In this document: one piece after another, positions 1 to 20,543 of the stretch
How positions within the stretch are numbered: position 1 is the stretch's first letter
Layout: every line of letters starts with the position of its first letter
IMG/VR virus record: IMGVR_UViG_3300025889_007970
Span: 1 to 20,543 of that record
Direction: 5' to 3' (one strand)
Source: a virus
Length of the DNA stretch: 20,543 nucleotides
Notes under the pieces: generated by a model
What the model saw: only the letters and a program-made list of their open reading frames with translations
What the model was told of the DNA's origin: nothing
The model's database searches: none
Position numbers and translations under genes: made by a program

Positions 1-1437
1 ATCAGGTGCTGTGCCTGAACGCAAATCACCTTTATATTTTAATTTATATTTCTTTACTACGCCTAGATCATCTAATACAAATACCCAAGAAACAGGACGT
101 TGTCCTTTAATGCCTGCGGCCCAAGATGCCATTCCTTTTACTATTACTGCTTTTTGTGTTTGATCGTCATCTAAATCTACGTTGAACCAGTTTTTTAATT
201 GTGCCTTATCTGTTCTAGCCTGGTCTTTCATTTTTTTCTCTAATACATATCTTTGTTTAGGACTTTTGTATATGCCATCATTATATTTTACTAGTGATGT
301 TAAACTCTTGTACATTTCTCCATCCCATTCAGAATCAAAATGAAAACCACGTGCTTGTTCTTTTAAAACAGGAGTACAATCACATTCTCCCGGAGGACAT
401 GTACATTCAGTACTTCCACATTGTGGGCAAGGCTTTTTCTTTTCAGTCATTATACCTTTTATTACAGAACTCTCACCAGTTGGAGACATTTCTTTTTCTG
501 CTTCTACGATTGTATGCAATGTATTCTTTAGTTGTTTTAGGTGATATAATGCTTGACGGAATTTATCGTCAAACACCATTTCAGTAATTTCTTTAGATTC
601 ATTTTTTGCTTTCTTACGTAAAGCACTCATAGGTAAAGTACCGCCACCACCTTGTATGTTTATCATTGGATCATCATTTTCTACTACTAAGTGATTTGGT
701 ATCACATTAGTTATATCTACTACTTTTACTTGATTACCGTCTGTTGTTGTTACAATGTCAAGTGATTTGTTTATCTTTTCTATTACTCCGGTAGACACGT
801 GGCCGCGACGTGTTTTTTCGCCCCAGTCACTGTCTTCTACATAATATGAAATCTTGTCACCTGGATTTATATCTCTAGTAGTATAAGTTTTTCTATTTAG
901 ATCGTATTCTCTTATAGGTAATTTGTCTGAATGTACTTTATGTTCTAGATATTCACGTATAGTGTTTAGATAATCATTGGCTTTTATAATTTTTTCTTGG
1001 ACCCAGCCTTCTATTCCTTCTTGTTCGGAAACATTTTTTAAGATGTCATACACTATCTTAGAATTTTTAGCGCACTGGAAAAGATCACTTAGAGCCATTT
1101 CTACTTCATGATCTGTTCTGTCTTTTTCTCGTGGTATGAATCCTGACTTCAATCTTTTACCAGCACTGGGAACTACTATAAGATCGGTTTCGGCAATATC
1201 TTCTTCTTTTAGTAAGGCGCGCATTTCTTCTTTGGTCTTGCCATATTTCTTCTTGAATTGTGCGTCAGATAGTTCCTCCATATCAGTAGCAATGCGCTTC
1301 ATCTTACCTTCATAAAATTTCTTTTTAGTCTTTTTACCCTTGAACATAGATCCTGCACGTTTTTGCGTACCGCCTATGGGCATGGATACACTAGCAACTG
1401 ATCCTGAGGTTGTTTCTTCTATTTGCCGGACTTTCAT
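1..1437 (-). CDS. Large phage protein of unknown role, C-terminus cut off by window edge
   Basis: The frame is open for all 479 codons from the ATG at 1437 to the left edge, so the C-terminus is missing. The start is supported by AAGGA 8-9 bases upstream and a late promoter box at 1461-1467. The N-terminus (about residues 10-27, a Gly/Ser/Val stretch ending in GGTQKR) and the helical segment at 109-167 (DHEVEMA, then EGWVQEKI and a Lys-Ala-x-Asp-Tyr motif) resemble segments I recall from hypothetical proteins of marine T4-like phages. Residues 188-250 look like a small SH3-like barrel. Residues 337-354 hold six cysteines in the pattern CPxC-x4-CxC-x4-CxC, probably a metal-binding knuckle. The protein is rich in Lys and Glu and has no signal peptide or membrane segment. 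It is the last gene visible, behind a terminator, so it probably has its own late transcript. Function is unknown; a virion-internal or assembly protein is a guess. Confidence 0.8.
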   Translation of the reverse strand, partial: MKVRQIEETTSGSVASVSMPIGGTQKRAGSMFKGKKTKKKFYEGKMKRIATDMEELSDAQFKKKYGKTKEEMRALLKEEDIAETDLIVVPSAGKRLKSGFIPREKDRTDHEVEMALSDLFQCAKNSKIVYDILKNVSEQEGIEGWVQEKIIKANDYLNTIREYLEHKVHSDKLPIREYDLNRKTYTTRDINPGDKISYYVEDSDWGEKTRRGHVSTGVIEKINKSLDIVTTTDGNQVKVVDITNVIPNHLVVENDDPMINIQGGGGTLPMSALRKKAKNESKEITEMVFDDKFRQALYHLKQLKNTLHTIVEAEKEMSPTGESSVIKGIMTEKKKPCPQCGSTECTCPPGECDCTPVLKEQARGFHFDSEWDGEMYKSLTSLVKYNDGIYKSPKQRYVLEKKMKDQARTDKAQLKNWFNVDLDDDQTQKAVIVKGMASWAAGIKGQRPVSWVFVLDDLGVVKKYKLKYKGDLRSGTAPD

Positions 1438-1467
1438 AAATAGATTCCTTAGTTATTAAGTATTTAT
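1436..1467 (-). promoter_or_regulatory. Candidate T4-type late promoter with RBS-hiding inverted repeat
   Basis: On the minus strand ATAAATA (1467-1461) lies 23 bases before the ATG at 1437. A T4-type late start would fall near 1455, leaving a leader that carries AAGGA. The seven bases of the box are repeated as an inverted copy at 1442-1436 over the start codon, and an inner CTTA/TAAG stem (1448-1451/1457-1460) covers part of the ribosome binding site. The box match is seen directly; promoter activity is inferred. Confidence 0.6.
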
Positions 1468-1491
1468 CTTAATTCCTATTATCAGGCTACA

Positions 1492-1521
1492 AAGATAAAG
1501 CCCCTTTCGGGGCTTTATCTT
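1492..1521 (-). terminator. Hairpin terminator after the 1578-2456 glycosyltransferase gene
   Basis: This is a perfect 13-base-pair inverted repeat (1492-1504 and 1509-1521) around a 4-base loop. On the minus strand the loop reads GAAA, a GNRA tetraloop closed by C-G pairs, which favours minus-strand RNA as the folded form. It lies 57 bases beyond the stop codon at 1578. The U-tract on the minus strand is weak (UUAUCUUUG). On the plus strand the hairpin is followed by AATCATTTTT, so it may also work in that direction, although no plus-strand gene is seen. Confidence 0.8.
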
Positions 1522-1577
1522 AATCATTTTTCAAGTTTGTGTGTATTAAAACTTGTTATCTCCTATTTGTTAAATCT

Positions 1578-2456
1578 TTACTTAGTTACTAATTGAACTC
1601 TACCTTCGTTCTTTTCTTTTTCTAGATACATAGGACCTATAGAATTGAACAGGTGTTCTTGTGCTTCCATGCAGAATACATAAGTTCCAGTATGACGTAG
1701 CAGAACTCTCTTGTCTACCCATACTCTTCCACCTATGTCACGCCAGTTCTCGCAGAAAGTCCAGTCTTCTGAATAATAGCGATTCTGACGAACAGCAGTA
1801 TCAAAATAAGTCTTTAAATACTTGTCATACTTTGGATCTAAACCTATGTCATTCTTATATGGTTTTACAGCAGGATGAGAATTTAACTTTTCAAAGCAAC
1901 TCTTCTTCATCAACAAGAAACCTGTACCTGCTTTGCTTACTTCTTGTAAGCCATCAGTACCTTCTTCTGCTCCCTCAAATCCATTGACTACCCACTTGAT
2001 AGGCATAGTCTTCATTGGGTACAAACCACCTATAACATCTACATTTCTGTTGAGTAGTACTAACAAATGCCACGGCTCCCAACCTATGTCTGCGTCTACG
2101 AAAAATAAGTGCGTAGCCTCTTCCATATCTAAGAACTTAGCAGTTAGTGTGTTTCTAGCCCTAGATATTAGTGATTCATTTACCATTGTTTCTAGAGTCC
2201 AGTCAATACCTAACTGTCTAGCAGTATTAGCCCACTTGATAAAACTCATAAAAGTAGATTCAGTAAGCATACCACCATAGCAGGGCATTGCTATATGTAC
2301 CCTAGTAGTACGTAAGAAATCAACATTTACTTGTACTTGCCCTGGTTGCGGAGCAGCGTTATCTGCTTGTACTGGTTGCTGATTTTCTACTATCTCCTGT
2401 ACTTTTTCTACAGGAATAGTCTTTTGTGTATTCTTAGTTGCTTTCTTCTTAGCCAT
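1578..2456 (-). CDS. GT-A fold glycosyltransferase
   Basis: Protein of 292 residues that probably transfers a sugar from a nucleotide-sugar donor in the host cytoplasm. The first 45 residues are a Lys- then Gln/Pro-rich low-complexity leader. The catalytic region starts near residue 52 (VHIAMPCYGG). Residues 96-107 include SLISRARNTL, common in this phage-type family, and FFVDADIGW at 118-126 gives the Asp-x-Asp metal-binding motif (D121, D123). SEDWTFC at 229-235 with the following WRDIGG, and H255 in the LRHTG segment, fit the C-terminal acceptor and metal-ligand region of such enzymes. The start is supported by GAGAGG and a late promoter box upstream (2479-2485). The acceptor is unknown; virion protein, DNA base and host surface are all possible. 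It is not closely similar to the paralogous pair at 8382-10545. Confidence 0.85.
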   Translation of the reverse strand: MAKKKATKNTQKTIPVEKVQEIVENQQPVQADNAAPQPGQVQVNVDFLRTTRVHIAMPCYGGMLTESTFMSFIKWANTARQLGIDWTLETMVNESLISRARNTLTAKFLDMEEATHLFFVDADIGWEPWHLLVLLNRNVDVIGGLYPMKTMPIKWVVNGFEGAEEGTDGLQEVSKAGTGFLLMKKSCFEKLNSHPAVKPYKNDIGLDPKYDKYLKTYFDTAVRQNRYYSEDWTFCENWRDIGGRVWVDKRVLLRHTGTYVFCMEAQEHLFNSIGPMYLEKEKNEGRVQLVTK

Positions 2457-2463
2457 GATATCC

Positions 2464-2494
2464 TCTCAGTTGTACTGTTATTTACTAACTGAGA
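2464..2494 (-). promoter_or_regulatory. Candidate late promoter in the loop of an 8-bp inverted repeat
   Basis: On the minus strand GTAAATA (2485-2479) lies 22 bases before the ATG at 2456. It sits in the 15-base loop of a perfect inverted repeat (TCTCAGTT at 2464-2471, AACTGAGA at 2487-2494). The promoter-distal arm carries the GAGA of the ribosome binding site GAGAGG. A transcript started near 2473 would lack the upstream arm. The box departs from ATAAATA by one base. Confidence 0.5.
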
Positions 2495-2505
2495 ACTAGT
2501 GCCAA

Positions 2506-3513
2506 TTATTTTTCGTCTAGGTAATCTTGAATTATTGGAGTAAAACTTTCTTGCACTCCGGCTGCAGCTGCTTTGTATAAATCTAACAGTTTCTGTATTC
2601 TGGGCTTGTATATCTCATATTCATCATCACGCATGTGTGCTTTCATATGGGGCTGGATGTACTTGATCATATCGTGTATGAATTGAAGTTTTTCACGATC
2701 AGTTTTTAATAATTCAAGTACTTTGGCACTCTTAATTGCTCGTTGTTGCACTGCTTTTAAGTCTTGTTCTTTCCCTGGTTTAGCCTTGTCAGCAAGTTTA
2801 GCAAGATTAAAAGTAGCAAAAAAACCGTAATCACCGATTAAATCCTGCATAGGTGTCCCTGGTGTAAGTCCTCTAGGTCCTTCAGTTAAGTAATCTACCC
2901 GTTCATCTAATTTTTTAGGCGGTTCGGACTCTCCACCCATACCAATATCTAGCATTTTAACAACAGTATCGGCTAGTTTTCTATTCTTTTGCGTTACAGG
3001 ATATAGACTCATAACCATTGCAGTTTTTTGTCTTTTGTTGAGTTTAGGCCATGCGTTACGTATTTCTGTCGCGCTTTTAATGCCGGGACCAAACTCTACT
3101 GTAGGTAGATAATGAATGTAAGCGTGTTTACCAAAAGGCTCTAAATCTTTTCCAGTATATGCTTGAAAATAAGCAGGACTGCCGTCTTTTTTAGTGCCAC
3201 CTGGCTTTGGTTGTTCTGTTCTGTCTTTTTCGCTACGCACAAAAATTACTATATCTTGTTCAGGATCATAGTTCTGAGTAATTTCTTTAGGCATGAATGG
3301 ACTCTTAACTTGTACGAAACTGCCTGGTTTTACTCCTGCTAACTTCGCTAACTTCTCTTTGATCTCAAAAGGAAAAGGACGTACTTTCTGATCGTTAGTA
3401 GCCGCGACATACATATCGGCATCAGGAAAGGCTTTTAGTGCGCTCTTATATAATTCATAATGACCTGCGTGAAAAGGATGAAATCCACCCGGCATTATTA
3501 CTATCTGTTTCAT
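2506..3513 (-). CDS. HxGH-type nucleotidyltransferase (cytidylyltransferase-like) with C-terminal extension
   Basis: Protein of 335 residues. Residues 1-185 form a Rossmann-like nucleotidyltransferase of the cytidylyltransferase/NadM superfamily: MPGGFHPFHAGH at 7-18 holds the nucleotide-binding HAGH, and KSATEIR at 146-152 is a variant of the family's ISSTxIR motif. Such enzymes join NMP to a phosphorylated substrate, releasing pyrophosphate; the substrate here cannot be told. Residues 200-335 are a separate, mostly helical extension rich in Lys and Asp/Glu that I do not recognise. I recall similar proteins near structural genes of T4-like cyanophages. The start lies 2 bases after the stop of the upstream gene, with AAGG about 13 bases before the ATG, so coupled translation is likely. 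It could supply an activated sugar or alcohol to the neighbouring glycosyltransferases, or act in NAD metabolism. Confidence 0.85.
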   Translation of the reverse strand: MKQIVIMPGGFHPFHAGHYELYKSALKAFPDADMYVAATNDQKVRPFPFEIKEKLAKLAGVKPGSFVQVKSPFMPKEITQNYDPEQDIVIFVRSEKDRTEQPKPGGTKKDGSPAYFQAYTGKDLEPFGKHAYIHYLPTVEFGPGIKSATEIRNAWPKLNKRQKTAMVMSLYPVTQKNRKLADTVVKMLDIGMGGESEPPKKLDERVDYLTEGPRGLTPGTPMQDLIGDYGFFATFNLAKLADKAKPGKEQDLKAVQQRAIKSAKVLELLKTDREKLQFIHDMIKYIQPHMKAHMRDDEYEIYKPRIQKLLDLYKAAAAGVQESFTPIIQDYLDEK

Positions 3514-3515
3514 GC

Positions 3516-3902
3516 TTAGTAACTTACCTTAACAAAATTAATTATGCCGTGCGCGAAATTTTCTACTCTTGCTCTGATGTAAACAAAATTACCTTCTATG
3601 TTAGTATAGGTAGATATATCAGAATTTAACTTCGGGGTAGTGTTAGCAGGGGCACTATAATTTGCTGTAAGGGAATAAACTTCAAACCAGTCACTGGATG
3701 ATGGTGAAGTTGCTAGAGAGGCTTCTATAACAAGATTGCCTGTTACTTCACTAAATTTAATGTTGACTGTTTGTAAATCTTCATTGCCTAGATAATAACT
3801 AGCAGCAGGTTGTGTGTTACCTGTAACATCATAGATGTTGGCTGTGCCACCGCCGTTATAAGCAGTTTCCGGTAACAAGATTAGTGTAGTAGATTGTGAC
3901 AT
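3516..3902 (-). CDS. Small beta-rich phage protein, probably structural
   Basis: Protein of 128 residues rich in Thr, Ser, Asn and Tyr, with alternating hydrophobic and polar residues typical of a beta-sandwich. It has one central Trp (SSSDWFEVYSL) and a C-terminal segment, GNFVYIRARVENFAHG, of the kind found in small virion-associated proteins of marine phages. There is no signal peptide, membrane segment or catalytic motif. Its ATG shares a base with the TAA stop of the upstream 55-residue gene (TAATG), so translation is probably coupled. Its own ribosome binding site is weak. The role as a neck, tail or decoration protein is inferred from composition and company only. Confidence 0.7.
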   Translation of the reverse strand: MSQSTTLILLPETAYNGGGTANIYDVTGNTQPAASYYLGNEDLQTVNIKFSEVTGNLVIEASLATSPSSSDWFEVYSLTANYSAPANTTPKLNSDISTYTNIEGNFVYIRARVENFAHGIINFVKVSY

Positions 3903-4069
3903 TAACTTTTTACCACTTCTACTACTATGCCATCACCCACTAACTCTTGTGCTACTTGCTCAAGAGCTTGTTGTACGTCAGAACCAGCAATTTCTGCGGC
4001 TTCTTTATCAGAATCTTTTACGATCTTGCTGAATTTAATTACTATAATATCTTCTACTATCTTAGCCAT
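3902..4069 (-). CDS. Conserved-looking 55-residue phage protein
   Basis: A short gene read directly from the minus strand, starting MAKIVEDIIVIKFSKIV and ending in VVEVVKS. It is acidic, without Cys or Trp, and probably has a beta-strand, an alpha helix (residues 21-43) and a final strand. Similar small proteins with a MAKIVE-type start are familiar to me from marine T4-like phages, without known function. The ATG follows GGAG by 5 bases, and a late promoter box lies 21 bases upstream. The strongest hairpin in the set covers both the ribosome binding site and the start codon. Its stop overlaps the start of the next gene (TAATG). Confidence 0.75.
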   Translation of the reverse strand: MAKIVEDIIVIKFSKIVKDSDKEAAEIAGSDVQQALEQVAQELVGDGIVVEVVKS

Positions 4070-4097
4070 AAATACTCCAATTTCTTAGAGTATTTAT
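4068..4097 (-). promoter_or_regulatory. Late promoter box forming a perfect 10-bp hairpin with the start codon region
   Basis: ATAAATACTC (4097-4088 on the minus strand) and GAGTATTTAT (4077-4068) are perfect inverted copies around a 10-base loop. The first copy is the late promoter box. The second carries three bases of the GGAG ribosome binding site and the first two bases of the ATG at 4069. Transcripts from further upstream would fold and hide the start, whereas a transcript begun at about 4085 would lack the first arm. The extended box GATAAATACTCT is shared with the site at 8344-8361. Confidence 0.7.
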
Positions 4098-4099
4098 CA

Positions 4100-4858
4100 C
4101 TAATCTGGGCGTTTCTCTAACTTAAAAGTTTCTCCCAACACCCCAGAAAAGATCATATGCAGTACAGTTAGATACTGACTGTCATCATAATCTACATAAA
4201 AACCCTGAATATAGTAGTTAAAATAGTATGGATGAGCAGAACAATCTATCAAGGGTTTACTAAGTCTTATGTTAGAATTGTATTTGTTTTTGTCAACATA
4301 ACTTAAAAGAGTATTCTGAATATTAACATCAGTCCACTTCTTACTACCTTTGAAAAAAGTCCTATATTTAAATTTGGGTTCCTTAGTAAAGTACTTGATA
4401 CCCTTAGGTAGTATCTTTACTTGATAAAATATGGAATCTTTGAAGTGACTAGCAAAATCTTTCAATTTGCTGAGGTCGTTTGAAAATACAGAAATAACAT
4501 TATTTTCTTGTCTTAGATAAATGTCCGGATTTTCTAGCACAGATTGTTTGAAATCAAAAACATATTTTATATGATTTATGTTCTCATTTACTACTTCCCA
4601 ATATAATATCCATGGACTACTTACTGATTTCCTAGAAGAATTATGTATTATAGAGTAATACTTAGGATAAGTAGCCGCTGGATTTCTATCCAGTATTTGT
4701 CTTTTTATTCTTTTTATTTTTGAAAAAAATTCATCTATGTTATCGCAATACCTGATGAACTCTACACCAGGTACCGCTACAATTACTTTATATTTAAACT
4801 TATTAAAAAAAAGTTTGTGTTGTTCTTTACGATTGAACTTCAATGATGCCATCCTCAT
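4100..4858 (-). CDS. Unrecognised 252-residue protein overlapping clpA
   Basis: I do not recognise this protein. It is basic and rich in Lys, Tyr, Phe, Asn and Ser, with no Walker, DxD or other catalytic signature and no membrane segment. It begins with a Lys/Phe-rich stretch (KLFFNKFKYKVIVAVPG). Its reading frame overlaps the 3' end of clpA by 32 bases from the ATG at 4858, but that ATG has no ribosome binding site. A TTG at 4843, preceded by GAGG with 9 bases between, would give a shorter form beginning MKFNRKEQ and may be the real start. The overlap suggests coupled expression with clpA, so an adaptor or partner role is conceivable but unsupported. Its base composition is more AT-rich than the neighbouring clpA. 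Confidence 0.65.
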   Translation of the reverse strand: MRMASLKFNRKEQHKLFFNKFKYKVIVAVPGVEFIRYCDNIDEFFSKIKRIKRQILDRNPAATYPKYYSIIHNSSRKSVSSPWILYWEVVNENINHIKYVFDFKQSVLENPDIYLRQENNVISVFSNDLSKLKDFASHFKDSIFYQVKILPKGIKYFTKEPKFKYRTFFKGSKKWTDVNIQNTLLSYVDKNKYNSNIRLSKPLIDCSAHPYYFNYYIQGFYVDYDDSQYLTVLHMIFSGVLGETFKLEKRPD

Positions 4859-7094
4859 TAATTTTCGCAGTTAGTTTGTTAGTAACGTTGAATTCAATCT
4901 TGTCGTCAACTAGAGTTGCGATAATATTAGAATCCTTTACACGCTCAAACAAAATCTTCTTTGATACAGGCACCCTGATCAATTCATCGATCTTTCTTGC
5001 TAGGGGTCTAGCACCCATCTTAGGATCATATCCTTCCTTAGCCAGATATTCTATTACTGGTTCAGTTAGATTGATAGTGATGTTATGCTTTTCTAACAGA
5101 GATCGCTTGATATCTTCCATAAACTTAACAACGATCTTCTTGATAGATAGCAAATCCAACTTCTTGAACTTGCAAATCTTGTCTAAACGATTCCTGAATT
5201 CAGGCTTGAAAAATTCTTTCATAGCCCTGTCATCTTCACCGGTCTTTTCTAGAGAACCGAAACCGATGTTGTTCTTTTCTGCGTCTGCTGATCCCAAGTT
5301 ACTAGTCAAGATGATAACAGTATTCTTACACGATACTTCCTTACCGTTACTACCTGTTACTCTTCCTTCGTCTAGGATCTGCAAGAATATATTAAAAATA
5401 TCTGGATGTGCTTTTTCTACCTCATCAAACAACATCACAGCATGGGGGTTCTTGCTAAGATCACTAATCAACCTACCACCCTGCACTTGGCTATCCCCAA
5501 ACCCAACGTAACCTGGTGGCGGGCCGATTAATGATGAAACACTATGCTTTTCAGAATATTCAGACATATCGTACTTTAGCAACGGCATATCTAGATTCTT
5601 GCTCAACAACTTAGCGAGTTCAGTCTTACCTGTGCCTGTTGGTCCTAAGAACAAGAAACTAGCGATAGGCTTAGTTTCGTTGTTGATACCCGCGAACGAT
5701 ACATAAACTCGTTCAAGCACACTCTCAACTGCTTCGTCCTGTCCATATAACTTGTCTTTGACATTTTGTGCTAGATTTTCGATCTTGACATAGTTATCTC
5801 CTGCTAGTTTATCAGCAGGTACTCCTGTGAATCTTTCTACTTGATCAAAGATCATTTGCTTAGTAATCTTAGCACCCTTGTTTTCTGCTACTCTCTGTTT
5901 AGCGCAAGCAGCATCTAGCAAGTCAATGCTCTTGTCTGGGTTCTTTCTATCTGAAATGTATCTTTCAGCAGTTTCTACCGCAGTCAGAATCGCTTCTTCT
6001 TGGATCTCTACTTCATGGAAGTCATTTAGTCTAGGTGCTAGACCATTCAAGATCCTGATAGTGGTATCCTTAGTAGGCTCATCAATAGTTACTTTGTAGA
6101 ATCTACGCATCAAAGCACGATCCTTCTCAAATGATTCGTAGAATTCTTCCCAAGTAGTAGAAGCGATTACCTTGAGTGTGCCCTTAGTGATCGCAGGCTT
6201 GATCAAGTTGGCGAAGTCTACAGCACCATTAGTAGAAGATCCTGCTGTATGCATCGTATGTGCTTCGTCAATAAACAAGATAGAATTCTTCTTGGCATTA
6301 AGTGCCTCGATAACTTGCTTTACCTTTTCTTCAAAGTCACCCCTATATCTACTACCTGCTAACAATCCACCTACTTCAAGTGAATACAAAGAATAACCCT
6401 TTAAGAATTCTGGAACAGCATCTTGCACTAGCGCAATTGCTAGACCTTCTACGATTGCTGTCTTGCCAACGCCGGGATCACCTACCATTAGCACGTTAGA
6501 CTTAAATCGCTTGGCTAACACATTAATGATACCATCAAGTTCCTCAGTTCTGCCGATACAAGGCTCTAACTTGTCTTGTTTTGCTAGGGCAGTTAAATCA
6601 GTAGTGAACTCAGCCAGAACTTCATCAGCCTGTCCCGGAGTCAATACACTCTCAAACTCATTGCCCTTATAAGTCTTTTGCCAATGTAGGACAAATTCGT
6701 TTTTAGAAATTCCATACTTCAACAAGAAATAATGAGCATGGCTATTGCCTTCTGCGGCAATGCTTAGATACAAGTCAATAGTTAGTACTTGACGCCTGCC
6801 CGTAAATAGTACCTGAGTAACTGTGCGATTCATCACTCGCTCAAGAGAATTAGTCTTGCGTGGTTGACAGTTAGCCTCTCTAGATTCGATAGCATGTAAT
6901 CCTGCGATATAAGCATTGAGTTCGTTGAGTAGCATTTCCATATCTACTCCATAAGAAACCAATGACTTCTTGAAAGGATTGTACGTGATCAATGATAGCA
7001 ACAAATGTTCTACAGTCACATATTCATGATTGTAGCCTTTAGCGATACTAATCGCTTGTTCGATAATAGTTTCTATTTCGGGTGAATTCATCAT
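4827..7094 (-). CDS. clpA: ClpA-type AAA+ protein unfoldase
   Basis: Protein of 755 residues with the ClpA layout. The N-domain is at 1-140. NBD1 has Walker A GDPGVGKT (205-212), Walker B ILFIDEAH (272-279), a pore loop with Tyr250 in SRYRG, and Arg fingers near 330. NBD2 has Walker A GPTGTGKT (484-491), pore loop GYVG (528-531), Walker B VMLFDEVEKAH (553-563), sensor-1 TSN (597-599) and sensor-2 GARPLAR (694-700). The coiled-coil middle domain of ClpB is absent, which argues for an unfoldase rather than a disaggregase. IGF at 610-612 sits where ClpA carries its ClpP-docking tripeptide. No clpP or clpS gene is in the window, so a partner would come from the host or elsewhere in the genome. 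The start follows GAGAGG by 7-8 bases. It sits 20 bases downstream of dnaJ, suggesting a chaperone pair. Both ATPase sites look intact. Confidence 0.95.
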   Translation of the reverse strand: MMNSPEIETIIEQAISIAKGYNHEYVTVEHLLLSLITYNPFKKSLVSYGVDMEMLLNELNAYIAGLHAIESREANCQPRKTNSLERVMNRTVTQVLFTGRRQVLTIDLYLSIAAEGNSHAHYFLLKYGISKNEFVLHWQKTYKGNEFESVLTPGQADEVLAEFTTDLTALAKQDKLEPCIGRTEELDGIINVLAKRFKSNVLMVGDPGVGKTAIVEGLAIALVQDAVPEFLKGYSLYSLEVGGLLAGSRYRGDFEEKVKQVIEALNAKKNSILFIDEAHTMHTAGSSTNGAVDFANLIKPAITKGTLKVIASTTWEEFYESFEKDRALMRRFYKVTIDEPTKDTTIRILNGLAPRLNDFHEVEIQEEAILTAVETAERYISDRKNPDKSIDLLDAACAKQRVAENKGAKITKQMIFDQVERFTGVPADKLAGDNYVKIENLAQNVKDKLYGQDEAVESVLERVYVSFAGINNETKPIASFLFLGPTGTGKTELAKLLSKNLDMPLLKYDMSEYSEKHSVSSLIGPPPGYVGFGDSQVQGGRLISDLSKNPHAVMLFDEVEKAHPDIFNIFLQILDEGRVTGSNGKEVSCKNTVIILTSNLGSADAEKNNIGFGSLEKTGEDDRAMKEFFKPEFRNRLDKICKFKKLDLLSIKKIVVKFMEDIKRSLLEKHNITINLTEPVIEYLAKEGYDPKMGARPLARKIDELIRVPVSKKILFERVKDSNIIATLVDDKIEFNVTNKLTAKINEDGIIEVQS

Positions 7095-7101
7095 ATTTTA
7101 A

Positions 7102-7118
7102 ACCTCTCAGGTATTTAG
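7102..7118 (-). promoter_or_regulatory. Candidate late promoter and small RBS hairpin before clpA
   Basis: On the minus strand CTAAATA (7118-7112) overlaps the dnaJ stop codon and lies 17 bases before the clpA ATG. Directly after it ACCT (7112-7109) and AGGT (7105-7102) can pair around a 3-base loop, covering part of the GAGAGG ribosome binding site. The stem is only 4 base pairs and the box departs from ATAAATA by one base, so this is the weakest of the five sites. Confidence 0.35.
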
Positions 7119-7897
7119 TTCTGCTTATTGCGTAAAATGCTATCAATTATATCGTTGTGTATATTATCAGGAATAAATGGTTTTAGCAATACTATCTGGT
7201 CTCCGAACCTACCTGTATTGCTTATGGGCATACCATGTCCGGGTATTCTTAGTTGCATATGTGGTTGAGTTTTGGGCTTAATAGTGACTTCTATAGTTTT
7301 TCCTGATATAGTCTCAAATTGGAAAGTACCACCTACTATTAGATCCAGTACTGATACTTGATGATTACATATCAAGTCGCTGTCTCTACGTTCAAACTTT
7401 AAATCTTGTATCTGGGCGAATAGTACAACCAGAGTACCATTTTCTATTATGTTCTCATATCTAATTTGATCTCCATGTTGTACACCTTTGGGTACTTCTA
7501 TGTTGATTACTTTAGTTCCTTTGTTGTCTTGGATTTTCAATACCTGACTAGAACCTTCGTATGATTCTTTCAACGTGAAGTTGATTTGAGTCCTGAACAT
7601 ATGTCTAGCATTGAAACCGGGCGGCCTGCCCTGCCCAAACATATGCCCAAAAATATCGTTGAGATCAAATGGGGAACCGCCAAAGCCCGGATTTGCGTTC
7701 ATCCTTGCTCTTGGGTTATCGTACTCTTCTCTTTTTTGTGGATTGGATAATGTTTCGTATGCTGCTTGTATTTGCTGAAATTTGGCTGTATCACCACCTT
7801 TATCTGGATGATGTTTGCTAGCCAATTTTCTGTATGCACGTTTTATATCATCGGGAGTCGCATTTTTATCGACTCCCAATACTGAATAATAATCCAT
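7115..7897 (-). CDS. dnaJ: Class B DnaJ (CbpA-like) co-chaperone
   Basis: Protein of 260 residues. The J domain spans residues 1-62 with the HPD motif at 30-32, which stimulates the ATPase of a DnaK partner. A short Gly/Phe-rich linker with NPGFGGSPF and a GHMFGQG segment follows (about 68-95). The C-terminal substrate-binding domains I and II follow from about 103, with [13 protein letters not shown], the typical signature of domain I, and LRIPGHGMP in domain II. The four CxxCxGxG zinc-finger repeats of class A DnaJ are absent, and the end is shorter than in cellular CbpA (about 300 residues). No dnaK or grpE is in the window, so it would have to recruit host DnaK. The gene lies between a holin-like gene and clpA. 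A sigma-70-like promoter is visible upstream. Confidence 0.93.
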
Positions 7898-7902
7898 GTA
7901 CT

Positions 7903-7931
7903 ATTTTATCTTATAAAAGATTTGTTGTCAA
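7903..7931 (-). promoter_or_regulatory. Sigma-70-like promoter before dnaJ
   Basis: On the minus strand TTGACA (7931-7926) is followed after exactly 17 bases by TAAAAT (7908-7903). The -35 is perfect and the -10 has one mismatch. The predicted start lies at or next to the dnaJ ATG (7897), which would give a leaderless or nearly leaderless message. This may explain the lack of a clear ribosome binding site. AT-rich DNA makes chance matches possible. Confidence 0.45.
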
Positions 7932-8336
7932 TTATTTTCTAGTTTTTCTTTTCACTGGCTCTTCTGAGACTTCACCTGCGCTTGGGCTATAATCTCTCTC
8001 ACCCTCGCAGTCTCCAGAATCATGATAGTGATTGTTATATCCTCCACCATAATATCCATATGGATTATATGGGGGCATTGGAGGCGGTGCATCTTGTTTA
8101 GTGTATGCTACCGGAGCGAACTTCTCTAGTCCAGTAAATCCTAAACCACCTATCACTATATATACCATAGAATCATATATAGCCTGAGTGATAGTTAAAC
8201 CAAAAAACAAATCTCCTATAAATGCTGCAACGCACAACAGAAATGCTAGGAAGGTTACTACCCTCTTAGAAGATATAGCATTATCGTCATGGCTGTCTGA
8301 TAACATTGATTTGAAATTTTTTGATATTGTACCCAT
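7932..8336 (-). CDS. Two-helix membrane protein, holin-like
   Basis: Protein of 134 residues. A short polar N-terminus (1-22) is followed by two hydrophobic segments at about 26-46 (VVTFLAFLLCVAAFIGDLFF) and 54-72 (ending in GGLGFTGLEKF). A 60-residue soluble tail follows that is rich in Pro, Tyr, Gly and Asn at 84-104 and then charged, ending in a basic run (VKRKTRK). Size, two transmembrane helices and charged C-terminus fit small phage membrane proteins often annotated as holins. No endolysin or spanin gene is next to it, so a lysis role is not proven. The start is well supported by GGGAG and a late promoter box with the same extended sequence as at 4091-4097. Confidence 0.75.
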   Translation of the reverse strand: MGTISKNFKSMLSDSHDDNAISSKRVVTFLAFLLCVAAFIGDLFFGLTITQAIYDSMVYIVIGGLGFTGLEKFAPVAYTKQDAPPPMPPYNPYGYYGGGYNNHYHDSGDCEGERDYSPSAGEVSEEPVKRKTRK

Positions 8337-8343
8337 AAGTTGT

Positions 8344-8361
8344 TACTCCCAGAGTATTTAT
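8344..8361 (-). promoter_or_regulatory. Late promoter with hairpin over the ribosome binding site
   Basis: On the minus strand ATAAATA (8361-8355) lies 18 bases before the ATG at 8336. Its downstream bases TACTC (8356-8352) can pair with GAGTA (8348-8344) around a 3-base loop. The GGGAG ribosome binding site lies in the loop and the second arm. A late transcript starting near 8349 would lack the first arm. The GATAAATACTCT core is identical to the site at 4087-4098. Confidence 0.6.
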
Positions 8362-9476: not shown

Positions 9477-10545
9477 TTTGCTGTACTCTATGTTCGATAC
9501 CTTCTATATAATATTTTAAATTTTGCTGTAGCCTTTCATCTTCTGGGTTCATCTTTGCAGCGATTGATCCTAACTCAAATGCTTTGTCTTTTAATCCTAG
9601 ATTATATGCTGCTATCGCTCCCATGTCAAAAATCTCGGCACTCCAAGCACGTTCGTCATAAGTGAAACCATTTCTTCTTTCATGAACATTTATGCATTTC
9701 TGTGAGTAGATATAACATTTATCCCACTCTTTTCTTTTATAATGATGATAGCAATAATAAAACCAAGTTTCTCTTTCATTGCTGTGATCTGTTGCTATGT
9801 TGTACCACTTAACTGCGTTTTTGTTATCGTTTATTGTAGAATAAAGATTAGCAACAGATTTCGCTACGTGTGATTTAGTTATATCATCATCCTCACATAA
9901 TTCATAACTTTTTGTTCTCGCTTCTATGGCTTTGATAATGTCTCCACCGTATTCGATAGACAAGAAGAAATATGTACGCCAATCTACATGACCTTCTTCA
10001 ACTTTTTTAAGCAACAAGTCTTTGTATGATGATCTTGGTTTAGTAATATCTTGATTCTCGTCTAAGTAAATATTACCTGCCATTATATCTTTCTCGGGCA
10101 CAAACCAGATCAATTTTTCATGAACTGCTCCCTGCCATATACAATTGTGTCTAGGATGAATTTTATTGTGCCATTGCCAGGGTCTTCCATTGTGTCTGTA
10201 TCTATGATTATATTGAGTAATTTCTGGATCGTAAACTTGTTCTAAGTTTTCTCGCCAGCCTTCTAGTAATTCTTCATCTAAGTCTTGCCATATACATAGA
10301 TCAATGTCAGCCGGTAATAGGTTCAGGGAAGCGTTTCTAGCGAAATCAAATCTCCATGGATTGACTGTAATGGGATAAACGATAACACCGTGATCTCGTA
10401 ATTTAGATACAGTTTTATCAGTAGAGCCAGTATCACACACTAAACGATAGTCTGCTTGATGGTTAGACTTAGCCCAGCGATCTACAAATTGCTCTTCATT
10501 TTTGCATATAGTATAGATAGCAATTTTTAACTTTCTTGTTGCCAT
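9463..10545 (-). CDS. GT2 glycosyltransferase with TPR-like tail (copy B)
   Basis: Protein of 360 residues, clearly paralogous to copy A over its whole length. It shares IAIYTICKNEEQFVDR at the start, CDTGSTDKT (37-45), NPWRFDFARN, QDLDEE (87-92, the metal-binding site) and HNCIWQGAVHEKL. The C-terminal half is helical and TPR-like, ending with GAIAAYNLGLKDKAFELG, which aligns with the end of copy A. GGAG lies 4 bases before the ATG. It overlaps the methyltransferase gene by 19 bases upstream and copy A by 14 downstream, so the three genes form one translational unit. The two copies differ enough that separate donors or acceptors are likely. Confidence 0.88.
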   Translation of the reverse strand: MATRKLKIAIYTICKNEEQFVDRWAKSNHQADYRLVCDTGSTDKTVSKLRDHGVIVYPITVNPWRFDFARNASLNLLPADIDLCIWQDLDEELLEGWRENLEQVYDPEITQYNHRYRHNGRPWQWHNKIHPRHNCIWQGAVHEKLIWFVPEKDIMAGNIYLDENQDITKPRSSYKDLLLKKVEEGHVDWRTYFFLSIEYGGDIIKAIEARTKSYELCEDDDITKSHVAKSVANLYSTINDNKNAVKWYNIATDHSNERETWFYYCYHHYKRKEWDKCYIYSQKCINVHERRNGFTYDERAWSAEIFDMGAIAAYNLGLKDKAFELGSIAAKMNPEDERLQQNLKYYIEGIEHRVQQNEEN

Positions 10546-11144
10546 AAATCTCCGTCATAAAGTAAATCACCGTATGCCCACTTCGGTTTATTTTCTGTGT
10601 CATTCCAGTTTACATATGGTTCTTTATTTTTCTTATGAATAACTGTTAAGTTGCTTGACTTGTCATTGCTAGCCCTAGCATTTACTTCTATAGTTTGTAC
10701 CTCTAGATAAAAATCTTTTATTGATTCCATAGCAATCGCGTAATCAAAATCTCTTCTAGTATCGTGAAATATCATAACACCATTAACAGATAAACTAGGC
10801 CACACACGTACAGCAAAATTTTTTCTATGTTCCCACAAACCGTCTACAAATATTAAATCAAACTGTATTTTTAAATTTTCATTAATATAGTCATTAAACA
10901 CGTAGAACTTTGGGTTGGTGCGTAAATCTATTTTATTTAATCTTTTTTGAGTAATATCGATCCAGGCTGCGCTAGTGTCAACACTAATAAGTGTGCTAGG
11001 CATACATTGGGCTAGTATATGTGTACTACCACCTACACCATATTCTAATATGCTGGTTGATTTTTTTCCGTAATATGATAACAAGTCTGCATCTTCTAGG
11101 CTAAGATCACCTATGAATTTAAAATTACCTAAATTTTTTAACAT
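10527..11144 (-). CDS. Class I SAM-dependent methyltransferase
   Basis: Protein of 205 residues with a Rossmann fold of the class I methyltransferase type, close to the Methyltransf_24 group. Motif I is ILEYGVGGST (32-41), where Tyr and Val replace the more usual Gly-x-Gly start. The acidic residue at the end of strand 2 is D56 (LISVDTS). FDLIFVDG (95-102) is motif IV-like and MIFHDTRR (124-131) is the motif typical of the sugar/O-methyltransferase branch. The last 40 residues are Trp/Asn-rich and not recognised. It is transcribed first in a unit with two GT2 enzymes, which suggests methylation of a sugar or of the same acceptor. The ATG has no clear ribosome binding site, and a TAAATA box lies only 5 bases upstream, too close for an ordinary leader. 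Confidence 0.85.
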   Translation of the reverse strand: MLKNLGNFKFIGDLSLEDADLLSYYGKKSTSILEYGVGGSTHILAQCMPSTLISVDTSAAWIDITQKRLNKIDLRTNPKFYVFNDYINENLKIQFDLIFVDGLWEHRKNFAVRVWPSLSVNGVMIFHDTRRDFDYAIAMESIKDFYLEVQTIEVNARASNDKSSNLTVIHKKNKEPYVNWNDTENKPKWAYGDLLYDGDLWQQES

Positions 11145-11180
11145 GACGATATTTAGCAGATAGAAACTATATCCGAAATA

Positions 11181-14100
11181 TTATATAGAACTGCTCTTAC
11201 CTGCGTATGTGTCAACAGCATCGAATTCTACGAAGATAGCATCAGTACCTCCATCGAAACTGCCGCCAGCGTAGCCGCCTATTAACAAGAATTCACCATT
11301 TTTAGAACAACTACTGCCAAATTCGTTGTCTGGAGTACCTATCTGATATTTTCTGAAGGTTCCAGATTCTGGTTCCCATATTGCTAATATTACGTCTAGA
11401 TATCCATAAGTAATGGCGTTATCAGCAAACAAGCCAGTTGAACTAGCAACAATAGCGATTCTTCCGTTATCTAGTATCGCGCTGGGCTTGCCGTTCTGTA
11501 CAAATATTTCTGATGTGCTAGAACCTGTTTGATACGCATTTCCCCAAGTATCTGTAGAATAATTAAATTTGATCAACCCTATGTCTTGCGAACCTAAGTT
11601 GGTTTGATCACCCAATCCTCCATATGAAGCATAAACTACAGCCAATTCGTTATTACCTAGATCATGTACATTCAAACCAACGTCATCTAGACCTGATCCT
11701 ACGTTATAGTAATCTGCTGTTTCAGTAGCAGGGTCCCATATACCTAAGAATATGTCATAACCTCCTTGGTTATCTCCTCCTAGATTACCTGTTGTTCTAC
11801 CTGTAAATGCTATCTTACCATTCTCTAATTCACACAGCGCATAAGTTTCTTCGTCCAGAGAAGTACCGTTTTGATAGAATTCTAATTCTTCTGTAACCGG
11901 ATCAAGTTCTACTAACAGATAATCATATGCTCCTGATAAACCCAAGTTTGTCATAGTTACGTCACCTGAAGTTTGCCCGATAGCCCATATTAAGCCATCA
12001 CTAGCTTCTATGATGTCATATCCGAACATATTACCATCGTCAGCAGTACCGTCACCTACCGTGGCTGCTTGCCACATCTTGCCTATCAATGTCCAATCAG
12101 AAAGATAATTGATAGCACTACAGCCAGCATTAGTTTCTCTAAATGTAGCAGTATTTTGATATGCTTGTAACAATTCTGGATCAATATAGGCCATGAAAAA
12201 TGTGAACAAACCATTAGGACCGAATCCGCCATCATATTCTCTACTTGTATAGTCAGAAGTGTCATATGTTGGTGAGTAAGAATCTGCTGCTAAAGATCCT
12301 GGATTATCACTGGGTGCAGTTACAGAAGCAAAAGTATCAACATCACTAGCAGTAGTTAGCGCACTTGCTAAGTAGTAATAAGGTGCTGTACCTGTTTCTG
12401 TGAAGTAATATGTACCTGTACCCCAGCCCTCTTTGTATCCCCTGAATAGTATAGCATCCATACTGTCTGAGTGAGACATGCTCCATCCTGATGTTATGAA
12501 GTTTAATCCAGTAGTGTCATTTACTATTCCAGTAAACTCTTCATCCATGTCATGTCCGAAAACGTTTTGCCAGTCTTGTGTTCCATCTGAAGATTGATAT
12601 CTAGCCACATACCCTTCTTGCATTCCCATACTAGGTATATCGCTTTTATCTGTGCTACCTGCTACCCATATATATCTCGTAGTATCTGTATATGGCGAAA
12701 CACACATGGCTGTAAATTTAACGTAGTACGTAGCCGCCACAGATACGTTCTTAGACCAATCTTTAGTGACAGTGTATGTACCAGATGATTCATCTACTAA
12801 GACTTTTAATAGCATAGCTTTAGAACCGTTAGATCCGCATATTACATATCCTGCATCTAATCCACCAGTAGCGGCTTCTGTATTTGCTATGTCCAAAGCG
12901 TTAATAGAACTAGCACCAGTATAACTTCCTACCCATTGTACCATTCTACTGATACTAGAGTTGAGTTCACACATGCCAAATCTCGCTTGAGAGGTTCCTC
13001 CCCCGTTATTTCCTGCGAATAAAAATCTACCAGCAGTTGGTGTAGATTGATTAGGTCTTACTTTATTAACAACTAAATTAGTATATGTATTTTGCTCTGA
13101 TATAACACCAGCAGTAGTTACTGCCAAGAATGTAGTAGAAGTTCCAGTAACAACTGCCATTACTACTACGTCAGTACCACCGTTGTTTATTACGCAAACA
13201 CTTTTCGCAGAGTCAGCATTAACAGTTCCATAAACTTTAGCCCAAGATAATGAACCATCTGAAGTACTTATTTTGCATAGTAAAGCGTCAGTACTGCCTG
13301 CGCCTGCTTGATTAGTTTCTCCTGCAACGTATATATATTCGTCGTTGCTGTCTACAGTTATGCCATAGCCAACATCATCAGGACTGCCGCCTGCTCCTAA
13401 AATCTTTTGCCACTGTATATCATAATTTTTGTTATATTTCGCTATAACGATGTAACCGTCGTCATGAGCACCTACCATGTAAACATTGCCGAGGCTGTCT
13501 ATAGTAAGATCACGCCACATTAATGTTGATCCACCGTCGTTTAAATTACGTACCCAACCGTGAATGCGTATTTCGCCCTTAGGTACTAACTCACTCTTAC
13601 TATATCCAGTTAACCATATCTTACCATCTGCTCCTTGATAGCATCCAGTTATGTAGTCATCGCCGGATCCTCCATAAGCAAAATGTGTACCTGAGTTTAG
13701 ATCAGGAGTAAAAATACTGAATAACAAATCTCCTGAACCCGTTGGTCCGAGGTTGCCGGGATTATTAACTACCTGACCAGCACCGAATTTTCTACCGTTA
13801 CTTAAAACTATAGAATGAAAATAGAATTCGTCAATTCCCGATCCTAAACTCAAAGATTTTCTATTAAAAAAGTTTGTACCGGCATTATCATAATCTAATA
13901 CTCTTATGTCAGATCCTATCGCTTGTGGTTCGATAGCATTTATTCTAGATAATTGTGAAGTTGTTGTGGTATATTTTACATAACCCGATGTTAAAGGATC
14001 TTTAACTACGAATTGATAATTAGTAGCATCAAAATCTAGATGTTTGTATCCAGTAAAAGTACCTGTTAGTTCAAAACTGTACATACCGGGTCCTACATAT

Positions 14101-15371
14101 GTAGAAGCACCGCCTGATGCAGTTCCGCTCAATAACGCATAATATTTAAAATCTTCTGAGTTAAATTCAAAACCATGTACTCTGATAGGATCACTAGCAT
14201 TGTTAGTTAAGAACGCACCTTCATCAGTCCAAGTAGTTCCATTATAACTATGAAGTCTGCATCCACCATTAGCGACATCAGTTCTTAAAACATATAAAGC
14301 AGTAGTACCCACAACTGCACAACATGAGTCAGGTCTAGATGCTAATCCAGATGCCAACACTTGTCTAGTAAGCGATCCGCTGCTAATAGTATCTAAACTA
14401 TCAAAACTCCATATCTCAAGATCAAAACCACTAACGCTATTGTTAAGTATAACTGGAAAATATATCTTAGTACCAAAAGAAGTACCCATACTAGCTCTAA
14501 CAGGATAACTGTTCTGTATATTACTACTTGGATTAAAATTAGGATCTGCTAAATCATAAGTACCTACAGTTACTTCAGAAGTCCAGCCCGATAAAGCGTC
14601 AGTATAAGTTCTACAAAATACATCCCACTCAGTACCGTTAGCAGTAATATAAAAAGCATGAAATCTTTCACCTATACCCCTTAATATTCCTCCAGGCATG
14701 TAATCTTTATTCGATACACTGGGTAATATCTGGTCGTTGTGAGAGTTGTGCGCTCCACCAACACTTGGTGTGTGTACGCGAGCAAACACGCTAGAATAGT
14801 TTACAGATGATACCCTGACTTTAACGTTAAGCATATAGCCAAATGCTTTATCTGCTGAGTCAATAAATCCCCTAGCACCTATAACTTCTCTACCGTTCTC
14901 GTATTCTGTATAAGTAGTAGGTGAGTGAGCGTGATATTGATAATAATACCAATCAGTTCCTGCGAAAGGTTCATATGCTCTGTCCCAATAAAAAGTTTGG
15001 TCGTCTGGGGCAGTAGATAAAGTACCTAAATGCGCGAAGAAAAATGCATCGTCTTCTTCTTCGTTTGTTATATCGTTTTGTCCTGGACCTATCCATTCGA
15101 TACAACCACCGTAATATGAAACGTTAGCACCATCCCATGGGTCTATGATTAAAGGATAACTACCCTCTATAGTCATGTTGGCGTTACCACCTGCTAATGG
15201 TAATGCGCTGCCCCATTTATATGGCTTGATTGCTGCTCCAAGACTCGTATTGTTTGCATTGGCTGGAAGATAAGTATACCAGTAACCATTATGAGATATA
15301 CCAGCAGTAATAGGTAAATTCAAATAACCATTAGTAATTGAGAGTTCTTGTTGCGAATTAGCTATTGCCAT
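11181..15371 (-). CDS. Large beta-propeller-type phage adhesin or fibre protein
   Basis: Protein of 1396 residues, rich in Gly, Ser, Thr, Tyr and Asp and poor in Lys and Arg. Residues 1-500 are a beta-rich region I do not recognise. About 510-985 hold repeats of the SBBP/seven-bladed-propeller kind: GGSGDDYITG, DLTIDSLGNVYMVG, DGYIVIAKYNKNYDIQWQK, EYIYVAGETNQAG, RYIWVAGSTDKSD and DEEFTGIV. After a linker at about 1000-1110, a second set of about 60-residue blades runs to the end (YDYLLVELDPVTEELE, GYDIFLGIWDP, GSQDIGLIKF, LDVILAIWEP). These blades are built around D-aliphatic-x-x-x-(W/F)-D/P strands. Such proteins are usual as distal tail or baseplate adhesins of marine T4-like phages. The start is chosen at 15371, with AGGA 10 bases upstream, right after two micro-ORFs. 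Binding of a host glycan is inferred. Confidence 0.85.
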   Translation of the reverse strand: MAIANSQQELSITNGYLNLPITAGISHNGYWYTYLPANANNTSLGAAIKPYKWGSALPLAGGNANMTIEGSYPLIIDPWDGANVSYYGGCIEWIGPGQNDITNEEEDDAFFFAHLGTLSTAPDDQTFYWDRAYEPFAGTDWYYYQYHAHSPTTYTEYENGREVIGARGFIDSADKAFGYMLNVKVRVSSVNYSSVFARVHTPSVGGAHNSHNDQILPSVSNKDYMPGGILRGIGERFHAFYITANGTEWDVFCRTYTDALSGWTSEVTVGTYDLADPNFNPSSNIQNSYPVRASMGTSFGTKIYFPVILNNSVSGFDLEIWSFDSLDTISSGSLTRQVLASGLASRPDSCCAVVGTTALYVLRTDVANGGCRLHSYNGTTWTDEGAFLTNNASDPIRVHGFEFNSEDFKYYALLSGTASGGASTYVGPGMYSFELTGTFTGYKHLDFDATNYQFVVKDPLTSGYVKYTTTTSQLSRINAIEPQAIGSDIRVLDYDNAGTNFFNRKSLSLGSGIDEFYFHSIVLSNGRKFGAGQVVNNPGNLGPTGSGDLLFSIFTPDLNSGTHFAYGGSGDDYITGCYQGADGKIWLTGYSKSELVPKGEIRIHGWVRNLNDGGSTLMWRDLTIDSLGNVYMVGAHDDGYIVIAKYNKNYDIQWQKILGAGGSPDDVGYGITVDSNDEYIYVAGETNQAGAGSTDALLCKISTSDGSLSWAKVYGTVNADSAKSVCVINNGGTDVVVMAVVTGTSTTFLAVTTAGVISEQNTYTNLVVNKVRPNQSTPTAGRFLFAGNNGGGTSQARFGMCELNSSISRMVQWVGSYTGASSINALDIANTEAATGGLDAGYVICGSNGSKAMLLKVLVDESSGTYTVTKDWSKNVSVAATYYVKFTAMCVSPYTDTTRYIWVAGSTDKSDIPSMGMQEGYVARYQSSDGTQDWQNVFGHDMDEEFTGIVNDTTGLNFITSGWSMSHSDSMDAILFRGYKEGWGTGTYYFTETGTAPYYYLASALTTASDVDTFASVTAPSDNPGSLAADSYSPTYDTSDYTSREYDGGFGPNGLFTFFMAYIDPELLQAYQNTATFRETNAGCSAINYLSDWTLIGKMWQAATVGDGTADDGNMFGYDIIEASDGLIWAIGQTSGDVTMTNLGLSGAYDYLLVELDPVTEELEFYQNGTSLDEETYALCELENGKIAFTGRTTGNLGGDNQGGYDIFLGIWDPATETADYYNVGSGLDDVGLNVHDLGNNELAVVYASYGGLGDQTNLGSQDIGLIKFNYSTDTWGNAYQTGSSTSEIFVQNGKPSAILDNGRIAIVASSTGLFADNAITYGYLDVILAIWEPESGTFRKYQIGTPDNEFGSSCSKNGEFLLIGGYAGGSFDGGTDAIFVEFDAVDTYAGKSSSI

Positions 15372-15891: not shown

Positions 15892-16839
15892 TTAATATCC
15901 CATCCTTATAATTTCAAAGTGTGTGGCTGTAGTCAAACTACCAGTTGAATCTGTATCACTAGCAAACAATTCTAAGTAATCATCTGCTGTTAGATAGTAT
16001 GTTTGTTCATAACTAGCAGATTCGTTTGCTGACATAGTAGATGATACTAGATCGGTAGAACCATTTTTCTTTAATGTTACTGTATATGTACCGCCAGCAG
16101 TTCCTGTTCTGAGGAAAATGTCTACGTTATAGTATCCTGAAACTTTTACTGTTAGTCTAGCCGGCGTACCAATAGACCAGTATGTTAGACCTAATGCATT
16201 GGCGTTCGTATCGTATTCTGTAGCGTTCCATGCTGTGGCTGTGGGTGTAGAAGAAGTAGAGAAGGGAGCAGTTAGATATACTTTAGCACCTGAGAAAGCA
16301 GAATAACTTGATATACCAGTACCTACAGTCAAACCCATTTGAGTGACTTCTATGAATGAACTAGTAAGTAAAGTTCCAGTACCATCTATTTCACTTACAT
16401 AAACTTCAATGTAATCGTCTTTGGCTAATTCTATAACTTCTTCGTAAGTTGCTGTTTGATTAGCATTGAATATAGAAGTTGCTATATTAGTAGTTCCGTT
16501 CTTTTTAACTGCTACAGAGTAACCTGATCCTTGACTACCTGCGAAAAGTGTTGTAGTTACTAAATAAAATCCAGAGCCTGGAGCAGTTATTCTTGTAGCA
16601 TTGCCACTACTAAAATAACCACCTTGATCGTAAGATTCTACATCCCAACTCACAGCAGTTGATGTTGTAGTAACCGCTACGTTGGCAGTTACTCCTAACT
16701 TAGTACCACTAAAAACTTTTAATGTAGTTCCAGTAACTACATTCCACACAGTTTTAGTGCTACTATACTGCCACACAACTGAATTATCATCAGTATAAAT
16801 GTCACCGTCACTAGGGCTTGTTGGAAAATTTAGCGGCAT
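15892..16839 (-). CDS. Tail fibre protein with two C1q/TNF-like jelly-roll domains
   Basis: Protein of 315 residues. Residues 1-38 (NFPTSPSDGDIYTDDNSVVWQYSS) are a common N-terminal attachment module of phage fibres. Two homologous domains follow: about 42-172 (FSGTKLGVTANVAV to EVTQMG) and about 181-315 (FSGAKVYLTAPFST to IIRMGY). Each has the repeated elements VxVKKNGTTN or VTLKKNGSTD, the NxxxSASYEQ-type strand, and DDYIEVYVSE or DDYLELFASD, followed by TGxLxTxxxFEIxxMG. These match the C1q/TNF-like jelly-roll fold, normally a trimer. The duplication is internal and diverged. A TAAATA box lies 4 bases before the ATG, which is too near for a normal late promoter. The neighbouring tail chaperone-type gene supports a fibre role. 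Confidence 0.85.
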   Translation of the reverse strand: MPLNFPTSPSDGDIYTDDNSVVWQYSSTKTVWNVVTGTTLKVFSGTKLGVTANVAVTTTSTAVSWDVESYDQGGYFSSGNATRITAPGSGFYLVTTTLFAGSQGSGYSVAVKKNGTTNIATSIFNANQTATYEEVIELAKDDYIEVYVSEIDGTGTLLTSSFIEVTQMGLTVGTGISSYSAFSGAKVYLTAPFSTSSTPTATAWNATEYDTNANALGLTYWSIGTPARLTVKVSGYYNVDIFLRTGTAGGTYTVTLKKNGSTDLVSSTMSANESASYEQTYYLTADDYLELFASDTDSTGSLTTATHFEIIRMGY

Positions 16840-16851
16840 AAACTATTTATC

Positions 16852-20543
<3,692 letters not shown>

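Follow-up and report, generated by a model that had tools for sequence, protein, structure and literature searches.

The stretch of DNA analysed here (the window) spans the 20,543 bases of the virus record IMG/VR IMGVR_UViG_3300025889_007970. Its large genes are all located on the minus strand, and five gene starts (1437, 2456, 4069, 7094 and 8336) are preceded by a TAAATA box resembling the late promoter box of phage T4. The ClpA-like protein of the window is about 75-80% identical to relatives in contigs of up to 525 kilobases (kb) and only about 40% identical to those of the cultured phages Atu_ph07 and Phosso, so that the window, judged by this protein, comes as a fragment from an uncultured lineage of jumbo phages. 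A DNA-level search of 8 kb of the window against known phages returned no match, and neither did an Rfam search. An earlier sequence-only reading had placed the boxes 23, 22, 21, 17 and 18 nucleotides (nt) before the respective ATG, and these positions and spacings are borne out. The boxes, the two genes with supported hairpins and the hairpin arms, given in base pairs (bp) where they pair, are the following.

1461-1466, minus strand: TAAATA of gene 1437, ending 23 nt before the ATG; conserved in about 50 orthologous loci
1578-2456, minus strand: gene for a protein of 292 amino acids (phrog_1574, function not assigned), behind a hairpin
2463-2471, minus strand: 3' arm AACTGAGAG of the 2456 hairpin, over most of the Shine-Dalgarno sequence GAGAGG
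2479-2484, minus strand: TAAATA of gene 1578-2456, a putative T4-type late promoter box, ending 22 nt before the ATG
2487-2495, minus strand: 5' arm TTCTCAGTT of the 2456 hairpin, preceding the box
3902-4069, minus strand: gene for a protein of 55 amino acids (function not assigned), behind a box hairpin
4068-4080, minus strand: 3' arm TTGGAGTATTTAT of the 4069 hairpin, over the Shine-Dalgarno sequence GGAG and into the ATG
4085-4097, minus strand: 5' arm ATAAATACTCTAA of the 4069 hairpin, the box being part of this anti-Shine-Dalgarno arm
4091-4096, minus strand: TAAATA of gene 4069, ending 21 nt before the ATG
7112-7117, minus strand: TAAATA of the ClpA-like gene 4827-7094, ending 17 nt before the ATG; no supported hairpin
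8355-8360, minus strand: TAAATA of gene 7932-8336, ending 18 nt before the ATG

Hairpins at genes 2456 and 4069

The sequence-only reading had further proposed an inverted repeat hiding the ribosome site at all five starts, and this holds at two of them: the stem at 2456 comprises 9 bp and that at 4069 comprises 13 bp, both are more stable than dinucleotide shuffles of the region from -60 to +10 (z -2.9 and -5.3, respectively), and each is shared by dozens of orthologs. With the late start placed by the T4-type spacing, in which box and start are about one helical turn apart (PMC2988020), the computed cost of opening the Shine-Dalgarno sequence of 2456 is 5.8 kcal in read-through RNA versus 0.2 kcal in late RNA, and that of 4069 is 12.8 versus 1.8 kcal. 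At 2456 the 5' arm ends before the box and, being upstream of it, would therefore be missing from the late RNA, and at 4069 the 5' arm holds the box and a few bases after it. A stem of at least 8 bp is present in 66 of 74 distinct 4069 orthologs, with loops that vary; here and below, the sequences used for family statistics all come from one metagenomic collection.

The DNA around the box at 2456 and 4069 would thus encode, in addition to a promoter element, one arm of an RNA hairpin, the other arm of which covers the ribosome binding site. RNA reading through from an upstream gene on the same strand would contain both arms, fold and be poorly translated. RNA from the late promoter would begin about six bases past the box, without the first arm, and would be translated. 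We infer in this scheme the RNA start sites, the presence of read-through RNA and the effect on translation; the genes upstream of 2456 and 4069 are co-directional with them. The layout is that of T4 gene e, in which a hairpin sequesters the ribosome site, the late promoter lies inside the sequence for the 5' strand of this hairpin, and late RNA omits that strand (PMC3014915). Here it is known from sequence and covariation, and it is found in other genes and in distant jumbo phages that are not T-even.

Arm covariation and gene context in relatives

Within each family, after removal of near-identical sequences, the pairing of each gene's own upstream arm was compared with that of the arms of other members, with z values derived from permutations that do not correct for the tree. 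Since relatedness alone gives no complementarity between arms, better pairing of own arms is evidence for selection on pairing. Own arms were favored in the family of the head-tail adaptor (17.8 versus 11.5 for swapped arms, z 9.7), of the baseplate wedge protein (14.8 versus 11.3, z 5.8), of 2456 (15.0 versus 13.1, z 4.5, 31 distinct orthologs), of 1437 (z 3.7) and of a gene for 355 amino acids (z 2.3), the sequence-only reading having suggested a check for covariation; three boxed control families showed no preference for own arms (z -0.7, 0.1 and 0.6). In the adaptor family the arm pairing reached 0.63, compared with 0.48 after permutation and a maximum of 0.57 in 1000 permutations, and each of the seven paired positions next to the core is occupied by 3-5 pair types. 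Compensatory changes that conserve the pairing are also present in the 2456 family; a test of outward arm pairing failed for this family, whose stem extends inward.

The gene context was examined in eight large relatives with 3,373 genes, called by a simple longest-open-reading-frame method on 20-kb pieces, of which 347 are preceded by a box at a distance of 13-28 nt. The count covered strong stems in which the 3' arm overlies the Shine-Dalgarno sequence and the 5' arm coincides with the box or precedes it. Behind a same-strand gene, 23 of 283 sites carry such a stem, versus 5.0 expected from arm swapping, and at a higher strength there are 14 versus 0.77 expected; behind a divergent gene there are none among 62 sites, with 1.7 expected (Fisher test for same-strand versus divergent, 0.009 by site and 0.037 by family). 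Overall, of the 345 leadered genes that have a box and an upstream neighbor on record, 23 (about one in fifteen) carry a strong stem, which is an underestimate, as stems of the 4069 type running past the box are missed by this count. Since only this fraction carries a strong stem, the hairpin is a tool of a minority of late genes, each with an upstream same-strand gene to read through from. The idea of hairpins as a shared, regulon-wide design was consequently rejected: most boxed late genes have no strong stem, the ClpA family and two other boxed families lack a hairpin, and the orthologs of 8336 lack the box.

The carriers include the head-tail adaptor, the baseplate wedge protein, several unknowns and two homing-endonuclease-like genes in a large relative of the window (L090:11649-12410 and L087:18238-18861, by PHROG matches), whose box-centered stems of 15-20 bp are among the longest. 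Versions of 10-11 bp stand at the adaptor gene in three cultured jumbo phages, XaC1, Munch and Muenster. In XaC1 a long series of non-structural genes on the same strand (e.g., RNA ligase and thymidine kinase) ends immediately before the adaptor gene. By eye, two more genes of XaC1 (L558, 20101 and 23922) seem to have the box in the 5' arm of a stem that reaches the start.

The boxes, the stems, the covariation, the co-directional context and a gp55-type sigma gene in relatives (see below) are observed. On this basis we consider it probable (about 0.8) that a mechanism of the T4 gene e or I-TevI type operates at 2456, 4069, the 1437 family, the adaptor, the wedge gene, the 355-amino-acid gene and the homing endonucleases, that is, in a minority of late genes. 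The comparison with gene e drawn by the sequence-only reading is strongly supported for 2456, 4069 and at least four more families in relatives with compensatory arm changes, and abandoned for 7094 and 8336.

Probable late-promoter boxes without a supported hairpin

The minus strand of the window has four copies of the heptamer ATAAATA (1461, 4091, 8355 and 16844), each in a gap between genes, as had been counted by eye; the plus strand has two more (1436 and 4068), located at the start codons of 1437 and 4069. The raw count of TAAATA in the window is not raised (19 versus 31 expected), and the signal is positional: in a scan of relatives the position of TAAATA peaks 15-24 nt before gene starts (81 loci). 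The box is found mainly in certain gene families: among the orthologs of 2456 it is present in 50 of 61, among those of the ClpA gene in 44 of 81, and in two other families in 42 of 48 and 42 of 46 members, and many families lack it altogether. In ten large relatives, GATAAATACT occurs 81 times, versus 7 times for the reversed pattern. Around the TATAAATA-like box itself, an A+T-rich segment is seen downstream, and an A+T block about 20-28 nt upstream is apparently in part end-of-gene coding sequence. A late sigma of the gp55 type is encoded by nine of the ten large relatives (phrog_12791, E about 1e-71 to 1e-76; phrog_234); the gp55 query matched T4 records at 100%, and later steps used the database copy of T4 gp55. 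Because of these sigma genes and the positional enrichment, TAAATA is most naturally read as a T4-type late promoter box, with a late regulon that would be gp55-dependent in kind. ATAAATA has likewise been described as a putative late promoter of the jumbo phages vB_PcaM_CBB and GAP32, where the same box precedes structural genes and a gp55-like sigma is present; the parts of that account available to us do not mention hairpins around the box (PMC5259590).

Repeats near two of the other three boxes in the window are the following.

1450-1478, minus strand: weak box-centered repeat of gene 1437, 6 + 3 bp with the box in the loop; the Shine-Dalgarno sequence is barely hidden
1491-1522, minus strand: intrinsic-terminator-like hairpin AAGATAAAGCCCC..GGGGCTTTATCTT, upstream of the 1437 box; seen directly
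8344-8348 and 8352-8356, minus strand: 5-bp repeat of gene 7932-8336 with a 3-nt loop; marginal and not conserved

The repeats at 7094, at 8336 and in the window copy of 1437 are most probably short chance repeats beside a late box, with the ribosome site simply open, and for these starts the hidden site of the sequence-only reading does not stand. When folded from -60 to +10, neither 7094 (z +0.6) nor the window copy of 1437 (z +0.3) is more stable than dinucleotide shuffles, and 8336 is marginal (z -1.6); the cost of opening the Shine-Dalgarno sequence is at all three no higher than with swapped upstream sequence, in a comparison that used 60 swaps per window site and has low power for single sites. 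Neither 7094 nor 8336 has a stable, conserved stem over the ribosome site: the ClpA family, to which 7094 belongs, has no hairpin, a Shine-Dalgarno sequence that is freer than in control families and no preference for own arms (z -0.7), and in the orthologs of 8336 there is no box at the corresponding place. Apart from the marginal value of 8336, what speaks against chance is the 1437 family, whose members pair over the Shine-Dalgarno sequence and as a whole match their own arms, so that the window copy may be a weak version; the 1437 hairpin thus holds for the family only. Several 1437 orthologs likewise have a GGGGCTTTT terminator upstream. At the ClpA gene (window 7094-7117 and orthologs), TAAATA frequently shares bases with the TAA that ends the DnaJ-like gene upstream, and some relatives have a spacing of only 5 nt. 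Further products of the window, besides the ClpA-like ATPase and the DnaJ-like protein, are glycosyltransferase- and methyltransferase-like proteins, a collagen-repeat protein (17220-20429) and a protein of 1,396 amino acids with a beta-propeller-repeat match (11181-15371).

A further class of boxes lies much closer to the start. In eight relatives the distances from box to start are bimodal, with a peak at 16-27 nt and a sharp peak at 4-5 nt that comprises 154 genes, all with ATG starts. At least four Shine-Dalgarno letters are present in 10% of the 4-5 nt class versus 69% of the 13-28 nt class. The gene caller prefers ATG and Shine-Dalgarno sequences and should not generate a peak of starts that are poor in the latter. 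Two genes of the window belong to this class.

11150-11155, minus strand: TAAATA of gene 10527-11144, 5 nt before the ATG; leaderless-type class
16844-16849, minus strand: TAAATA of gene 15892-16839, 4 nt before the ATG; leaderless-type class

With the T4-type start spacing (PMC2988020), RNAs of this class would begin at or beside the AUG, which suggests that they are leaderless late mRNAs. SCTP-2 has two cases of the 4-5 nt type, and the peak was not found in samples of a T4 late region or of Atu_ph07 and XaC1 (49 kb each). We also infer that read-through RNA of these genes would be silent. A broader proposal, which we regard as tentative and rate somewhat below even odds, is that late genes may be translatable only via their own late promoter, in two ways: by a hairpin that hides the ribosome binding site, or by a leaderless mRNA that starts at the AUG and whose read-through counterpart has no Shine-Dalgarno sequence, with about 150 leaderless late genes in the eight genomes.

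Competing explanations and known systems

The inverted repeats could act as DNA, either as a palindromic operator bound by a protein or as a pair of late promoters that diverge back to back and have two facing ribosome sites. Such palindromes do exist at the divergent late promoters of T4 genes 4/53, 26/51 and inh/segE (L512, 76000-118000), where they arise from two ribosome sites that point in opposite directions, and they are a trap for hairpin scans. Furthermore, the 3' arm of 4069 contains TATTTA, the box of the opposite strand, in 55 of 74 distinct orthologs; however, the stem is kept more often in this family (66) than the opposite-strand box. Moreover, in the eight genomes every strong stem follows a co-directional gene and none follows a divergent one, arm sequences differ between families and orthologs, and loop length varies. 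Divergent-promoter palindromes were therefore rejected as a general cause by gene orientation, though they are present in T4, and a role as DNA is improbable overall. That the stems instead stabilize or process late mRNA, or terminate upstream transcription, without hiding the ribosome site, is very improbable: some upstream regions do hold terminators, such as that at 1491-1522, but the 5' arm precedes the expected late start, so that late RNA would lack the stem, and the 3' arm enters the Shine-Dalgarno sequence and often the ATG with no U run after it.

Several observations weigh against ribosome-site hairpins that silence read-through RNA until late promoters act. The upstream same-strand genes may be late too, and the block would then not be one of early versus late; the terminator upstream of 1437 may already restrict read-through. 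The 4069 arm is nearly invariant among orthologs, which leaves too little variation for compensatory changes to show, and as this arm runs past the box, swapping only the sequence as far as the box gives no information on this stem. With respect to the sigma factor, the window, a fragment of 20.5 kb, has no recognized sigma gene, and G005, a relative of 335 kb whose record is possibly incomplete, has boxes and hairpins and no gp55 match.

Ribosome sites hidden in RNA structure are known for T4 e, soc, 49, 25, 26, I-TevI, I-TevII, I-TevIII and segB and for mobE of phage Aeh1, and several of these genes have a late promoter whose RNA lacks the 5' arm (PMC3014915, PMC2988022). The genes soc, 49, 25 and 26 resemble the cases described here in that they are late, include baseplate genes and have sequestered ribosome sites; unlike in T4, the best-conserved carriers here are a head-tail adaptor and a large baseplate wedge gene (PMC3014915, PMC2988022). 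Homing endonucleases are a class controlled by such hairpins in T4, and I-TevI, I-TevII, I-TevIII, segB and mobE share their layout with the L090 and L087 genes, the likeness being one of layout (PMC2988022). A mechanism of a handful of T-even genes would thus recur in distant jumbo phages, most of them uncultured, where the covariation indicates that selection maintains it. The rule that the hairpins stand at genes behind same-strand neighbors follows directly from the read-through idea and can be tested, and if the leaderless class is true, these phages would have in the choice of the start site a general means of timing translation.

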